Position numbers and translations under genes: made by a program
Notes under the pieces: generated by a model
What the model was told of the DNA's origin: nothing
The model's database searches: none
Seen by the model: only the letters and a program-made list of their open reading frames with translations
In this document: positions 52,386 through 60,422 of the stretch, in pieces
Layout of the letters: each line of letters begins with the position of its first letter
Position numbering within the stretch: position 1 is the stretch's first letter
NCBI GenBank assembly: GCA_903822425.1
Contig: CAIJOY010000026.1
Coordinates: 1-64,000, forward strand
Reading direction: 5' to 3'
Length of the DNA stretch: 64,000 nt
From: an uncultured Actinomycetes bacterium
Lineage (GTDB): Bacteria; Actinomycetota; Actinomycetes; Nanopelagicales; Nanopelagicaceae

Positions 52386-53496
52386 AGCTTTCTTGGTCTT
52401 GGACGATGGACGAATTTTTGAAGGTAATTCTTGGGGTGCAGTAGGAACAACTTTTGGCGAAGCTGTTTTTGCCACTGGAATGACCGGGTATCAAGAAACG
52501 CTGACGGATCCTTCTTATCACAAACAAGTTGTTGTGATGACCGCTCCGCATATCGGAAATACTGGAATGAATGTAGAAGACGAAGAAAGTTCTAAGATTT
52601 GGGTGTCGGGTTTTGTAGTCAGAAATCCATCGCCCATCACCAGTAATTGGAGAAGTAGATCTGCGTTAGAAGATGCGCTCATAGCGCAATCGGTTGTAGG
52701 AATTAGTGGAGTTGACACACGCGCATTGACACGACATCTGAGGGATCGTGGTGCAATGCGTGTTGGAATTTTTTCAGATCAGAATTTGACTCGTGAAGAG
52801 ATGGTTATTGCTGTGCGCAAGAGTCCGACCATGGTCGGTGCAAATTTAGTAGCGGATGTTTCCACGCGATCTACATACATTGTGCCGGCGATTGGGCAAA
52901 AGATTTTTACAGTTGCCGCGATCGATTTAGGAATAAAGGCTGCCACTCCTCGTGCACTCTCACAGCGCGGTGTTGAAGTACATGTTCTACCGCATGACGT
53001 AACTTTCGCTCAACTTTTAGAACTCAAACCTGATGGCGTTTTTCTCTCAAACGGTCCTGGGGATCCTTCCACAATGGATTCAGTGGTTGGGGTGATCCGC
53101 GAAGTTTTAGCCGCACATATACCAATCTTTGGGATCTGTTTTGGACACCAATTATTAGGGCGTGCATTGGGTTTTTCAACATACAAATTATCCTTCGGCC
53201 ATCGAGGTATCAATCAACCGGTTATAGATAGAAAATCTGCCAAAGTTGAGATCACAGCCCATAATCATGGTTTTGCACTTGAAGCACCTACTGAAGGTGT
53301 TTTTACTACCGTGTACGGGATTGGCGAAGTCAGCCACGTGAGTCTCAATGATGGAGTAGTAGAGGGTCTACGCATGATTGATGTTGCAGCTTTCAGCGTT
53401 CAATATCACCCAGAAGCAGCTGCGGGTCCGCACGATGCTTCATATTTGTTCGATGAGTTCGTAGATCTGATGAAATCTCGATCGGTGGTGCACTAG
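52378..53496 (+). CDS. carA: Carbamoyl-phosphate synthase, small (glutaminase) subunit
   Basis: A 372-residue subunit. The N-terminal half is specific to CarA ([29 protein letters not shown]). The C-terminal class I glutaminase has SNGPGDPS, the nucleophile in [10 protein letters not shown] near residue 247, HNHGFAL and [11 protein letters not shown] with the His/Glu pair. The ATG at 52378 gives the normal N-terminus and overlaps the pyrC stop. The stop shares a base with carB. Confidence 0.95.
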
Positions 53497-56400
53497 TGCC
53501 GTTAGATAAATCGATTAAGAGTGTTTTGGTGATCGGATCGGGTCCGATTGTCATCGGGCAAGCCTGTGAATTTGATTATTCCGGTACTCAAGCATGTCGC
53601 GTGTTACGAGAAGAAGGAATTCGGGTAATTCTTGTAAATTCAAATCCTGCCACCATTATGACGGATCCTGAATTTGCCGACGCAACATATATCGAACCGA
53701 TAACCCAAGAATTTATCGAACGAATTATTGCTCGCGAAAAACCGGATGCAATCTTGGCTACTTTGGGTGGACAAACAGCACTCAACGCCGCGATGGGGTT
53801 GCATGCCGCGGGGACTCTTGAGCGTTACAACGTCAAACTCATTGGCGCAGATGTGAAAGCTATCGAACGAGGCGAAAATCGTGAACTCTTTCGAGGCATC
53901 GTGGCCAAAGTAGGAGGCGAGTCGGCGCGATCCATCATTTGTCACACACTCGAGGAGTGCGTGCAGGGGGCAGTGCACTTAAATTATCCTGTAGTTATTC
54001 GGCCATCTTTCACTATGGGTGGTTTAGGTTCTGGTATTGCGTTCAATGAGCTAGAGCTGCGACAAATTGCTGGGGCCGGGTTGCGACACAGTCCAACAGC
54101 TGAAATTTTATTAGAGGAATCTATTATTGGGTGGAAAGAGTACGAACTCGAAGTGATGCGAGATCGCAAGGATAACGCGGTAATTGTTTGCAGTATAGAA
54201 AATATTGATCCTATGGGCGTGCATACAGGGGACTCCATCACGGTGGCACCTGCGATGACGCTGACCGATGTTGAATATCAGAAGTTACGTGATCTATCCC
54301 TTCTTATTATTCGTGAAGTTGGGGTTGATACGGGCGGGTGCAATATTCAGTTTGCGGTGAATCCAGATTCGGGCCGCATAATAGTTATCGAGATGAATCC
54401 ACGAGTGTCTCGATCCAGTGCTTTGGCATCCAAGGCCACAGGCTTTCCTATCGCTAAAATTGCTACCAAATTAGCCATTGGCTATACCCTGGATGAGATC
54501 CAAAACGACATTACACAAGTAACACCGGCATCCTTCGAACCCACTCTTGATTATGTGGTCGTTAAAGTTCCTCGTTTTGCTTTTGAAAAATTTCCTGATG
54601 CTGACCCCCGCCTAACCACCACCATGAAAAGCGTCGGTGAAGCAATGGCCATAGGGCGATCTTTCGCTGAAGCATTGCAAAAAGCGTTACGTTCGTTGGA
54701 GAGGAAAGAAGCTCCATTTAGATGGCCACAAGAACGTCCTGAAAGTCAGAAACGCGCCCTGTTGCAGGCGATGCGAGTGCCCACCGAATATAGATTGCAG
54801 GAAGTACAACAAGGTTTGTGGTTTGGAGCTTCCATCGAAGAGGTATATGAAGCGACAAAGATTGATCGTTGGTTCTTGTCACAAATTCACATGATCAACG
54901 AGGCGGCATCCAAAATCGCACTACCAGGTGAATTGACGGATGAGTTATTGCGCGCAGCCAAGCACATGGGCTTCTCGGATCAGCAAATTGGAGATTTAAG
55001 AGGGATATCGCAAGAGGATGTCAGACGTCAGCGTCACGTGAGAAATATCCGTCCTGTATATAAAACTGTGGATACATGCGCAGCTGAGTTTGCCGCTTTC
55101 ACCCCTTATCACTATTCCAGTTATGAAGATGAAACTGAAGTACAAGCGCGCACGAAACCGGCTGTGATTATTCTTGGTAGTGGTCCCAATCGAATTGGAC
55201 AGGGAATTGAATTTGATTACTCCTGTGTTCACGCTGCTTTTGAATTACGCAAAGCCGGGTATGAAACGGTGATGATTAACTGCAATCCTGAGACAGTTTC
55301 AACCGATTATGACACCAGTGATCGCCTCTATTTTGAACCATTGACCCTTGAAGACGTTCTTGAAGTGGTGCATGCAGAAACCCTTGCGGGTCCAGTGTTA
55401 GGAGTGATCACCCAACTTGGCGGACAAACTCCATTAGGAATTGCTGGACCGCTCAAACAAGCTGGCGTCACTATTTTGGGAACGAGCCCTGAAGCAATTC
55501 ACTTAGCTGAAGAACGTGGCGCATTTGGCAATATATTGCATGAACAGAATTTGAAAGCTCCAGAATTCGGTATGGCTGCTTCTTCGCAGGAAGCTTTAGA
55601 AATCGCTCATAGAATCGAATATCCGGTGCTTGTTCGCCCAAGTTTTGTTCTGGGTGGGCGCGGAATGGAGATTGTTTATGATGACGCATCCCTTGCTGGA
55701 TTTATCCAAAGAGCAACAGATATCACACCAGATCATCCGGTACTTGTAGATCGTTTTTTAGATTCTGCAATCGAAATTGACGTCGATGCACTTTATGATG
55801 GTGTTGAACTTTTTCTAGGTGGAGTAATGGAGCACATTGAAGAAGCAGGAATCCACTCGGGTGATAGCGCTTGTGTGCTGCCTTCTATGACGATTTCTCG
55901 TGATCAATTAGCAAGCATCCGCGATGCCACGCAAAAAATTGCCAATGCAGTTGGGGTCAGGGGATTGATAAACATACAGTTTGCTCTTGCTGAAGGGGTC
56001 CTGTATGTATTAGAAGCAAATCCGCGAGCATCTCGCACTGTTCCTTTTGTCAGTAAAGCCACTGGAGTTTCACTTGCTAAGGCGGCAGCGCGTATTGCAG
56101 TGGGAGCAACGATCGCGCAATTGCGCGGTGAATCGCTTCTGCCTGCTTTAGGCGATGGGGTTGCTAAAGGAATTTCCGTGAAGGAGGCAGTTCTGCCATG
56201 GAATCGTTTTCGCCGCAGTGATGGTCGCGGTGTTGACGCGGTTCTTGGGCCTGAAATGCGCTCTACAGGTGAAGTCATGGGTATTGCTAGCACCTTTGGA
56301 GAAAGTTATGCCAAAAGCCAAATAAGTGCTTTTGGGCCCTTGCCTAAATCTGGAAAAGTCTTTATTTCACTTGCTGACAAAGACAAGGAGAAGGGAATTG

Positions 56401-56765
56401 AACCTGCCCGACTTCTTCTTTCACTAGGATTCACTCTTATTGCAACTGCCGGAACGGCAAAATTCCTAGGAGATCATGGCGTTGTATGTGGATTAGTGCG
56501 CAAGAACTCTGAAGGAGTGGGTCCATTTGGCGAACGTACTGCTGTGGATCTGATCTCATCGGCTAGCGTGGATTTGGTTATCAACACACCGGTGGGGCGA
56601 GGCACTCGTCAAGATGGATGGTTAATTCGCACGGCGGCCGTTCAACGTTCCATTCCGTGCATCACTACTACAGCGGGTTTTAGTGCTGCAGTAGCCGGTA
56701 TCCAAGCTTTGCAACGCAGCGAACTAGAAGTCTCACCTTTACAAGATTGGTTGGCTCAATCATGA
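53496..56765 (+). CDS. carB: Carbamoyl-phosphate synthase, large subunit
   Basis: A 1089-residue enzyme made of two homologous ATP-grasp halves. The first starts near [20 protein letters not shown] and the second near [20 protein letters not shown] (about residue 560). Both metal/ATP sites are visible as [18 protein letters not shown] and [18 protein letters not shown]. The last 140 residues are the MGS-like allosteric domain, which in other bacteria binds UMP and ornithine. GTG start. Length is normal. Confidence 0.97.
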
Positions 56766-57598
56766 GTTACATCAATTCCAAAGCAGAGCAAATCTCTTCA
56801 ACGATCCTTAGTAACAAACGCGTTGGCCAGTATCATCAAATTCTTCTCAATGTGGGAGCGGTAGTGAAACACTGCCGTCCTGGAAATTTTGTAGTTATGA
56901 GCGTCGGGGGAGAAAATTCATCGCTGATTTTGCGCAGAGCATTTGCAATATCGCGCACATCTGATCGCGGAGAATACGGTGGTACTTTGGAACTCATCGT
57001 CGCGCCGCATGGTTCTGGAAGCCGTTGGCTCTGTTCACAACCCGAAGGTGCCACCGTAGATTTAGTTGCACCTTTAGGCACACCTTTTGGAATACCCACC
57101 ACTCCAGTGCAAGCGCTACTAATAGGAGGAGGGTACGGGTCAGCTCCGTTGTTTGGTCTTGCTGAAGTACTCAAATCACGTGGTTGCCGTGTCGACATGA
57201 TTCTAGGAGCGAGTACATCAGCCAAGATATATGCCCCTTTGGAAGGTAAGCGATCTGTAAGTTCCCTCAAGATTTATACAGAAGATGGAAGTACTGGAAT
57301 CATGGGCAAAGTTATAGACCCACTTGCGCAATTATGCGAACTCGGTGAAGTAGATGTTATTTATTCTTGTGGCCCCATGGGCATGCTTGCAGCGATCTCT
57401 ACTATTGCTCAAACACATGAGGTGATCCATCAATGTGCAGTGGAGGAATCCATGGCCTGCGGTGTTGGTATTTGTATGACGTGCGTTCTTCCTGTTTTGA
57501 AAGATGATGGCACAATTTCCATGCTCCGCTCGTGTATCGATGGTCCTGTCATGGATGGCGCACGAGTTCAATGGGCAAGTGTAGGTCAAAGTTCATGA
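56762..57598 (+). CDS. pyrK: Dihydroorotate dehydrogenase electron-transfer subunit
   Basis: A 278-residue ferredoxin-reductase-like protein carrying FAD, NAD and a 2Fe-2S site. [11 protein letters not shown] near residues 62-72 is the FAD motif, [17 protein letters not shown] near 120-136 the NAD motif, and CGVGICMTC near 240 with a further cysteine in LRSCIDG forms the iron-sulfur cluster. It passes electrons from the PyrD partner to NAD+. The ATG overlaps the carB stop and pyrD begins inside its stop codon. Confidence 0.92.
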
Positions 57599-58545
57599 CA
57601 CAGGACTTTGATTTCTCAACCACGTTAGGTACTGCCTGGTTTCCGTCACCGCTTTTTACCGCTAGTGGTTGCGCAAGTTCTGGTCGCGAGTTATCGCAAT
57701 TCTTCCCACTCAGTGACATCGGTGCTGTGGTGACCAAATCGATCATGCTTAAGGCTCGTACCGGAAGACCTACACCGCGTATGGCTGAAACCCCCAGCGG
57801 CATGTTGAATTCGATCGGTTTGCAAGGCCCTGGGATTGATCATTTTTTAGCCAATGATGTTCCGTGGCTGGTAGAAAATGGTGCACGAGTCATCGTTTCG
57901 ATTGCAGGAGAAACGGTTGATGAATACGCCGTGTTAGCGAGGCGGTTGCGTTCTATTGGTGGTATTTCTGCTGTTGAAGTAAATATTTCATGTCCCAATG
58001 TGGAAAACCGCGGACAAGTTTTTGCTTGTGATCCACAAGCCTCTCGCGCTGTAATCGACGGCGTCCGCAGAACCCTCGGGGGCGATCTTCCAATCATCGC
58101 CAAACTTTCACCGGATGTGACAGATATTGCCAGCATTGCCAAAGCGGTTGTTGAAGCTGGAGCTGATGCTTTGGCTTTAATTAACACTTTGTTAGGAATG
58201 GTAATAAATACTGACACTATGCGGCCACATTTGGGTGGTAAAACTGGAGGACTTTCTGGTCCAGCCATTCGTCCAGTAGCGGTACGAGCGATTTATCAAG
58301 TACATGCTGCTCTACCGTCGGTACCAATATTGGGAATGGGCGGAGTGCGAAGCGGTAGGGATGCATTAGAAATGATCCTGGCTGGAGCCCAGGGAGTGTC
58401 GGTCGGAACGGCGAGTTTCTCGAATCCGAGCGCGGTCCTGATGATACAGAACGAACTTTTAGGATTACTGAAAGCAAAAGGGTTTGGGTCTTTGCATGAA
58501 GCCGTTGGGTTCGCACACCGTGATGAGCTGGCAGATGTCGAATAA
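57595..58545 (+). CDS. pyrD: Dihydroorotate dehydrogenase, class 1B catalytic subunit
   Basis: A 316-residue FMN barrel oxidising dihydroorotate. The segment FTASGCASSGRELSQF near residues 19-34, EVNISCPNVENRG near 128-140 with the catalytic cysteine, KLSPDVTDI and IGMGGVRSGRDALEMILAGA (as ILGMGGVRSGRDA) are all class 1 features, and the adjacent pyrK makes it class 1B. The ATG overlaps pyrK. The enzyme acts in the cytoplasm and does not need quinone. Confidence 0.94.
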   Translation: MTQDFDFSTTLGTAWFPSPLFTASGCASSGRELSQFFPLSDIGAVVTKSIMLKARTGRPTPRMAETPSGMLNSIGLQGPGIDHFLANDVPWLVENGARVIVSIAGETVDEYAVLARRLRSIGGISAVEVNISCPNVENRGQVFACDPQASRAVIDGVRRTLGGDLPIIAKLSPDVTDIASIAKAVVEAGADALALINTLLGMVINTDTMRPHLGGKTGGLSGPAIRPVAVRAIYQVHAALPSVPILGMGGVRSGRDALEMILAGAQGVSVGTASFSNPSAVLMIQNELLGLLKAKGFGSLHEAVGFAHRDELADVE

Positions 58546-59239
58546 AGCACCGATCATTCTTGCTGTAGACACTCCAGATATTGAATTAGCGCAGAAATGG
58601 ATAGAAACTACATCAGACTTTATTGCGGGATATAAGTTGGGTCTTGAATTTTTCTTAGCTTTTGGGAGCGAAGGAGTCCGCAAACTACAAAGAAGTTCTG
58701 ATGCATTCCTTTTCTTGGACCTTAAACTGCACGACATTCCCAACACTGTTTCGCACGCGATTTCTCAAGTTAAATCTCTCACTCCTCGGTTTTTGACTGT
58801 TCATGCAAGCGGTGGGCGTGCAATGATTGCAGCAGCGGTGGAGCAGGCACCTGATATCGAAATCACAGCAGTCACTGTTTTAACTTCGCTCACTCCAGAG
58901 GCACTTTCTGAAGTTGGTTTTAAGAAAGATCCATTAGAAAGCGCTGTCACTCTTGCACTCTTAGCCCAACATGCAGGGGCTCGGGCTATTGTGTGTTCAC
59001 CCCTTGAAACACACGCTATCCGAGCAGCGGTTGGACCAGAAATTTCGATCATTACCCCTGGTATTCGTCGTGCTCATCAGGCAGGTGCTGATGATCAAAA
59101 TCGTACGATGGGTCCCAAGCAAGCAGTACAAGCAGGCGCAACGTATCTGGTGATCGGACGTCCAATTACTGGCGCGTGGAGCCAGGGAGCCAAAGCCATG
59201 CGTGATGCGGCCGATGAGATCGCGCAGGAAGTGAGCTAA
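58535..59239 (+). CDS. pyrF: Orotidine 5'-phosphate decarboxylase
   Basis: A 234-residue short-type enzyme making UMP. The catalytic segment is FLDLKLHDIPNTV near residues 56-68 with the Asp-Lys-Asp array, followed by TVHASGG and, near the end, GRPITGAWSQGAKA. This is the compact form rather than the longer mycobacterial/Streptomyces type. The ATG at 58535 overlaps the end of pyrD; ATG 58523 is an alternative. It closes the pyrR-B-C-carA-B-K-D-F operon, so all UMP steps except pyrE are here. Confidence 0.93.
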   Translation: MSNKAPIILAVDTPDIELAQKWIETTSDFIAGYKLGLEFFLAFGSEGVRKLQRSSDAFLFLDLKLHDIPNTVSHAISQVKSLTPRFLTVHASGGRAMIAAAVEQAPDIEITAVTVLTSLTPEALSEVGFKKDPLESAVTLALLAQHAGARAIVCSPLETHAIRAAVGPEISIITPGIRRAHQAGADDQNRTMGPKQAVQAGATYLVIGRPITGAWSQGAKAMRDAADEIAQEVS

Positions 59240-59266: not shown

Positions 59267-60142
59267 ATGAAGCAGCCTCCAATCCTTACTGCCGAGGAAC
59301 GCAGACTTGCCTTAGAGAAAGCAGCTGCCTCTCGCCGTTCCAGAGCGCTGGTGAAGAATCAAATAAAACAAGGGACGATCTCGATTCAAGAGGTCGTGGA
59401 ACTCTCTCGTCAAGATTCAGCAATAGCTAAAATGCGCGTCAGCGAACTTTTGGAATCTATTCCAGGAGTTGGAAAAATTCGAGCTGTAGCGCTGATGGAA
59501 CGGCTTGGGATTTCACAACCTCGCCGGATCCAAGGATTAGGGATGCGGCAACTGCAAAATTTGCTGCAAGAGTTCACAGCTTCTTCTCCCATAAGAGGAA
59601 GAGGTAAGTTGATTGTTTTATCTGGGCCCGGCGGAGTGGGTAAAAGTACTGTTGCTTCGCGATTGCGCGAAGTCAGTGATTTTTGGGTGAGTGTTTCGAC
59701 TACGACAAGAGCCCCACGCATGAATGAAAAAGAGGGTGAGGATTATTTTTTTCTCTCCGAAAATGAATTTGATCTCAAAATCCAGAGAGATGAATTTTTG
59801 GAATGGGCTAATTTCGCTGGAGCAAAATACGGAACCCCTCGCCAAGGAGTTGAAAACGCCCTGAAAATGGGAAGAAATGTTCTTCTGGAAATCGAAGTTG
59901 ATGGCGCAGCGCAGGTGAAGGCACATAGCCCAGAAGCGATATTGGTTTTCCTTCAGCCTCCCAGTTGGGAACATCTGGTCTCACGGCTAGAAGGAAGAGG
60001 TTCAGATAGTCCAGAAAGACGTAGTCAACGCTTAGAACTGGCCCAGAACGAGATGGCTGCAGCTAAAAACTTCGATTTAGTTCTCATAAATGATGAGGTC
60101 GAGAACGTGGTCGAGCGGCTGGTATCCTTAGCAACTCACTAA
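59267..60142 (+). CDS. gmk: Fusion of mIHF-type DNA-binding domain and guanylate kinase
   Basis: One open frame of 291 residues. Residues about 6-103 match actinobacterial integration host factor: [51 protein letters not shown]. Residues about 112-291 are a complete guanylate kinase with P-loop GPGGVGKST at 120-128, [19 protein letters not shown], the lid and [11 protein letters not shown]. It should phosphorylate GMP to GDP and also bind DNA. In relatives these are two adjacent genes, mihF then gmk. A TTG at 59609 with GAGGAAGAGG just upstream could restart translation and release free Gmk (starting at residue 115). No stop codon or frameshift separates the halves. Confidence 0.9.
60123..60128 (+). 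promoter_or_regulatory. Candidate -10 box (TATCCT) for rpoZ
   Basis: TATCCT lies in the last codons of the mIHF-gmk gene and would leave about 27 bases of leader containing GGAGG before the rpoZ ATG. No clear -35. Confidence 0.3.
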
Positions 60143-60161: not shown

Positions 60162-60422
60162 ATGGACCGCTCAATGGACGGCATTACTAATCCACCTATC
60201 GATGAACTCTTAGATAAGAGTGGCTCCAAATACAGCCTCGTTCTCTATGCAGCTAAGCGTGCGCGCCAGATCAATGCTTACTATTCACAATTGGGTGAAG
60301 GTTTACTTGAGTACGTTGGACCACTTGTTGAAACACATGTGCACGAGAAGCCATTGTCGATCGCACTTCGTGAGATCAATGAAGGCTTGCTCACTATCGA
60401 GAATCTCGAACCAACCGCTTAA
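60162..60422 (+). CDS. rpoZ: RNA polymerase omega subunit
   Basis: An 86-residue small polymerase subunit. [27 protein letters not shown] near the N-terminus is the conserved omega helix that clamps beta-prime, and [17 protein letters not shown] is the C-terminal helix. GGAGG is five bases before the ATG. It follows gmk as in nearly all Actinobacteria. Confidence 0.94.

Follow-up and report, generated by a model that had tools for sequence, protein, structure and literature searches.

The gene for the actinobacterial nucleoid protein mIHF and that for guanylate kinase (Gmk) form one continuous gene in the stretch of DNA analyzed here (the window, 64,000 nucleotides of an uncultured Actinomycetes bacterium of the Nanopelagicaceae). 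As the initial annotation had claimed, a single open frame of 291 codons runs without a stop from 59267 to 60142 on the plus strand. It probably encodes one bifunctional protein, in which a short, tolerant linker would join an N-terminal DNA-binding actinobacterial IHF domain to a fully active C-terminal Gmk and thereby tether Gmk to the nucleoid. Both families and the mihF-gmk-rpoZ neighborhood are known already; a literature search of partial coverage turned up no publication on a fusion of mIHF with Gmk. The NCBI label of NF041260, "equivalog_domain," suggests that curators have met the domain inside larger proteins. Families and genera are denoted below by f and g numbers, f1 being the family of the window genome, g1 its genus, and the other numbers other families and genera.

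Layout of the fused gene and its neighborhood

The features of the locus are as follows.

58544..59239, plus strand: pyrF, upstream neighbor (PF00215, 6.3e-42), ending 27 bases before the fused gene
59267..60142, plus strand: fused mIHF-Gmk gene, 291 codons, ATG start, TAA stop, without internal stop
59279..59575, plus strand: mIHF (actinobacterial IHF) domain, residues 5-103, S13-like H2TH (NF041260, 9.4e-34; PF22525, 6.7e-26)
59522..59533, plus strand: RRIQ, residues 86-89, at the RRxR position; Gln instead of the third Arg, which nearly all fused relatives also lack
59576..59599, plus strand: linker TASSPIRG, residues 104-111, sequence and length varying among relatives
59594..59611, plus strand: AGAGGAAGAGG-TAAG-TTG, an SD-like purine-rich stretch with in-frame TTG at 59609 (Leu115); proposed internal start, not conserved in the genus
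59603..60133, plus strand: guanylate kinase domain, residues 113-289 (TIGR03263, 4.4e-64; alignment to solved Gmk structures, including M. tuberculosis 1znw)
59624-59650, plus strand: P-loop GPGGVGKST of the Gmk domain
60162..60422, plus strand: rpoZ (RNA polymerase omega), downstream neighbor (PF01192, 3.2e-16), with its own GGAGG site

Using hmmscan, we matched profile positions 3-101 of 102 of NF041260 (actino_IHF) to residues 5-103 (116 bits versus a cut-off of 60), Pfam H2TH_5 (PF22525, 6.7e-26) to residues 33-103, and TIGR03263 (guanyl_kin) to residues 113-289 (215.4 bits versus the curated cut-off of 160.45). With mIHF ending at residue 103 and Gmk starting at 113, the linker comprises about eight residues (104-111), in agreement with the fewer than ten proposed initially. 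Whole-genome tblastn detected no second copy of mIHF or Gmk, leaving the fused gene as the sole copy of both; the mIHF sequence is in frame with Gmk and the genome has no free small mIHF protein. The mIHF part stands directly upstream of gmk-rpoZ, fused in place, with rpoZ starting at 60162. One HU homolog is encoded elsewhere in the genome.

A scan of the fused locus for promoters and terminators returned nothing above chance, and an AlphaFold2 prediction with the window protein and that of the relative L031 as input was discarded (pLDDT 45). On the upstream side, carB, pyrK, pyrD, and pyrF (53496-59239), whose spacers are short or overlapping, lead directly into the fused gene, and this adjacency may mean that pyrimidine and guanine nucleotide steps share transcripts.

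State of the two domains

The P-loop GxxxxGK[ST], the GMP-binding S/R/R/E/Y residues, and the lid Arg are all present in the Gmk half (columns 120-128, 144-160, 179, 188, 240, and 244). Across fused and split proteins, the P-loop, S144, T146, T147, R148, R151, E154, Y160, E179, Y188-G-T, E208, R240, and R244 are invariant or nearly so. From these motifs and from its being the sole Gmk of the genome, we infer ATP:GMP phosphotransferase activity for this half. Both domains are complete, as initially described, and both have relatives of solved structure; the Gmk half is intact, and the mIHF half is under purifying selection but altered.

The fused mIHF domains are strongly basic (mean pI, 10.9; net charge, +9) and retain R23, R26, K30, R86, R87, G90-L-G, and Q95; dN/dS for mIHF ranged from 0.02 to 0.38 in the fused pairs that were not saturated. 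The alterations concern two positions. Residue 60 (59444-59446) is Glu or Asp, and at residue 89 the third Arg of RRxR, an H2TH-region motif that we take to contact DNA, gives way to Gln, Gly, or Ala; each change is present in 90 of 91 fused sequences and across all three independent fused lineages (see below). The window protein accordingly reads RRIQ, with the first two Arg retained. Among the split proteins, 26 of 48 combine a non-acidic residue 60 with Arg or Lys at 89, while g17 and one f3 genome carry the fused pattern though unfused; the association is no more than a correlation over about three independent contrasts.

The ratio of dN in mIHF to dN in Gmk was higher in fused pairs (median 1.59, 12 species pairs) than in split ones (1.04, 7 pairs), with a p value of 0.007 that is optimistic, the species pairs being related and not fully independent. 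The mIHF half is thus kept but under changed or looser constraint. Together with the missing third Arg, its faster evolution relative to Gmk means that DNA binding by the fused protein may be weakened.

The same changes could also mean that the mIHF domain no longer acts at the nucleoid and has become no more than an N-terminal appendage of Gmk, serving stability, solubility, or oligomerization, with HU packing the chromosome. The substitutions at 60 and 89 in all three fused lineages, the faster evolution of the half, and the HU homolog would all fit such a loss. We nevertheless consider it unlikely: the domain is present in every fused genome, strongly basic, with R86 and R87 (or Lys) retained, and under purifying selection, and the occurrence of the same two substitutions in unfused lineages (g17 and the f3 genome) makes them no proof of lost function.

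The domain boundary: proposed internal start and linker

The initial annotation had raised the option that one mRNA yields both the full fusion and, from a start at the domain boundary (here TTG 59609), free Gmk. The purine-rich AGAGGAAGAGG (59594-59604) and the in-frame TTG are present as described, the former lying 4 nt before the latter with an anti-SD pairing of -6.7 kcal/mol. The pair is not, however, maintained in g1. The Leu115 codon in the 21 genomes is CTT in six, TTA in four, TTG, CTG, and CTC in three each, and CTA in two, and seven genomes have no in-frame ATG, GTG, or TTG in the boundary at all. A start with SD was found in 3/21 (14%), against 25% under synonymous codon randomization, and GAG at Glu102, the codon that forms the SD elsewhere, is not enriched (35%). 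In f36, too, only 2 of 16 sequences have a start with SD. An internal start at 59609 is therefore not borne out for the window genome or its genus, and production of two proteins from this mRNA is improbable.

The picture differs in sister genera. All 20 g2 genomes have a start with SD, against a synonymous-codon null mean of 34%, and none of 200 null sets reached 20/20; this start is either TTG at -15 or ATG at -14 codons from the P-loop, both occurring together in one genome only (Fisher p 1.2e-4), although the p values overstate the number of independent events, genomes of a genus being related. Such switching between two positions points to selection for a start and not to one inherited codon. 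A start with SD is likewise found in 15/19 g7 genomes (null, 54%) and 6/11 g15 genomes (null, 18%), and the SD-forming Glu102 codon is GAG in 49/53 genomes of g2, g6, g7, and g15, compared with about 54% of other Glu codons. The loci concerned are L039, L042, L043, L079, and L197-L212 in g2, L027, L028, and L172-L194 in g7, and L029, L032, and L174-L196 in g15. A candidate internal start at a position neighboring 59609, a few codons upstream, is thus well supported in g2, g7, and g15, which suggests that free Gmk is also made there. Our reading is that the old gmk start may have survived the fusion in one branch and decayed in that of the window. Because no conserved internal start remains in g1, all Gmk there is probably 1:1 with mIHF, carried on the DNA-binding domain.

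The linker measures 2-8 amino acids in most genera of the family and 17-18 in g8, and its sequence is not conserved. Being short and unconserved in both sequence and length, it makes a precise interface between the domains, or a hinge acting allosterically, less likely; most likely, the two domains would work side by side without regulating each other. It is quite doubtful that binding of GMP or ATP by the Gmk half, or its oligomerization, alters DNA binding or bridging by mIHF, so that the compaction of the chromosome would respond to the level of guanine nucleotides. Were this so, the parallel changes to acidic 60 and non-Arg 89 in three fusions would be adaptations to the coupling.

Distribution and origin of the fusion

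The same frame is unbroken, at 62-72% identity, in all 20 other searched genomes of g1, so that the fusion is found in 21/21 and a sequencing error hiding a stop or frameshift, which the initial annotation had considered, is excluded. The window does come from a draft genome of 48 contigs, but an assembly artefact joining two genes has virtually no likelihood left and is already refuted by the genus genomes and by the one-contig genomes of g16 and g2.

We read 136 genomes of family f1 at the DNA level, of which 113 were fused and 23 split. The 11 fused genera (g1, g2, g3, g4, g6, g7, g8, g11, g13, g15, and g16) include many one-contig genomes. In the six split genera (g5, g9, g10, g12, g14, and g17), gmk starts 0-50 nt past the mIHF stop or overlaps it (ATGA), and in g14 and some g17 genomes both genes share one frame and are separated by a lone TAG or TAA. 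The initial annotation named separate genes in close relatives as a finding that would refute the fusion; such relatives do exist, as sister genera within f1, but what they display is the arrangement before (or after) fusion, which is no refutation. At L033, L034, L036, and L038 (g17) and L041 (g14), a single in-frame TAG separates mIHF and gmk; in g17 the pairs may have arisen by re-splitting of an earlier fusion, or such pairs may represent a stage that precedes it.

Beyond the 113 genomes of the family, the distribution search in actinobacterial genomes found the unbroken fusion in two further groups. The best matches listed for 394 genomes of the class and for 246 of the phylum included full-length, stop-free ones only in f1, in f36, and in genus g94 of f34, in a search that could miss a fusion with a very long insert. 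In f36, which we guess to be Microbacteriaceae, 22 of 22 genomes are fused (one broken by a contig end), as are both genomes of g94. G078 has the same 363-codon open frame length twice in the table and was rejected as a fusion, a TGA lying between its genes. In nearly all other genomes of the class and phylum, mIHF and gmk are two neighboring genes, which the search often merged into one match containing exactly one stop. Since mIHF and gmk are adjacent throughout the phylum, often overlapping (ATGA), and the fused forms occupy the same place between pyrF and rpoZ, the proposal of a merger of neighboring genes stands.

In IQ-TREE phylogenies of Gmk, f36 groups with the unfused f3, f33, and f26 (97%), g94 groups with the unfused g107 of f34 (95%), and family f1 stands by itself (98%). 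As f36 and g94 each lie beside unfused relatives, the trees indicate at least three independent mIHF-Gmk fusions in Actinobacteria; the Gmk tree also led us to reject the idea that f36 or g94 acquired a ready-made fusion horizontally. A position of g94 near f1 in an earlier, smaller tree was taken as a sampling effect. Within f1, a tree of seven neighboring genes has four split genera (g5, g14, g9, and g12) branching at the base; g10 and g17, also split, are nested among the fused genera. Parsimony leans toward a single fusion followed by one re-split, which takes two changes, and away from three or four separate fusions; the fused residue pattern of the split g17 was counted toward the re-split.

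Several other loci departed from the usual arrangement. In tblastn, gmk was without a separate adjoining mIHF match at L147, L150, L151, L152, L159, L168, and L170 (f34 g64 and g105), L157 and L160 (f5 g21), and L154 (f33), and mIHF may be lost or strongly diverged in these genera. The Gmk match lies in two frames at G552:C1:7752945-7753480 and G365:C1:1901782-1902353, in otherwise complete genomes, as if frameshifted or through sequencing error. In G377, G461, and G634 (f37 g72), the Gmk beside mIHF is itself very diverged or partial; the Gmk match of G377 covers residues 114-233 only, in an open frame of 169 codons.

Discussion

The reading as one bifunctional protein draws on the single frame and the sole copies, the recurrence of the fusion in the 21 genus and 113 family genomes, the active-site residues of Gmk, the basic and constrained mIHF domain, and the closely spaced or overlapping, in several cases same-frame, genes of unfused relatives. 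Judging from sister genera, the fusion would have arisen when the stop/start overlap of a translationally coupled mIHF-gmk operon was lost. Its main effects would be a fixed stoichiometry, cotranslation, and placement of GMP-to-GDP conversion at the nucleoid. In M. smegmatis, fusions of msIHF to EGFP or mNeonGreen replace the essential msIHF, so a globular partner of similar size is tolerated by mIHF (PMC10028186). That DNA binding is coupled to GMP/GDP metabolism, or Gmk carried to the nucleoid, as initially proposed, would follow from the architecture.

The abundance of the mIHF orthologs counts against the bifunctional reading. mIHF is essential in mycobacteria and among the ten most abundant proteins of M. 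tuberculosis (PMC6155035, PMC10028186), and in the S. coelicolor nucleoid sIHF ranks second in abundance among annotated DNA-binding proteins (PMC3784963). Because the free proteins are so extremely abundant (PMC6155035, PMC3784963), and Gmk would not be expected to reach such levels, a fixed stoichiometry is a real puzzle; the options are that mIHF levels are lower, that Gmk levels are higher, or that the fusion is cleaved.

In M. tuberculosis, the mIHF gene directly precedes gmk and rpoZ in the same order, and deletion of mihF is polar on both (PMC6155035). In the fusion, an architectural protein and a metabolic enzyme would have a common level and location, which is relevant to the conservation, so far unexplained, of the mIHF-gmk neighborhood. 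The genomes offer a natural series of overlapping genes, fusion that kept an internal start (g2, g7, and g15), fusion that lacks one (g1 and f36), and possibly re-splitting (g17).

Comparison with known systems

The whole mIHF domain aligns end to end with mIHF of M. tuberculosis (Rv1388, PDB 6tob) and sIHF of S. coelicolor (SCO1480, PDB 4itq), with E values of 8.7e-22 and 4.2e-29, respectively. Those are free proteins of about 105 residues, whereas the window protein is fused to Gmk, has Gln in place of Arg at 89, and is acidic at residue 60. The fusions of f36 (22 genomes) and g94 share with it the domain order, a short linker, the acidic residue 60, and the lack of Arg at 89, but are of independent origin and have different linkers (5-10 amino acids in f36 and 11-18 in g94). 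Like bacterial Gmk (TIGR03263; M. tuberculosis Gmk, 1znw), the fusion has a full-length kinase domain with all motifs, and it differs in having an N-terminal DNA-binding domain where Gmk's own start would be. Eukaryotic MAGUK proteins, in which GK is fused to SH3/PDZ, likewise carry the guanylate kinase fold as one part of a multidomain protein; in MAGUKs this domain has no catalytic activity and serves as a scaffold, whereas the active site in the Gmk of the fusion is complete.
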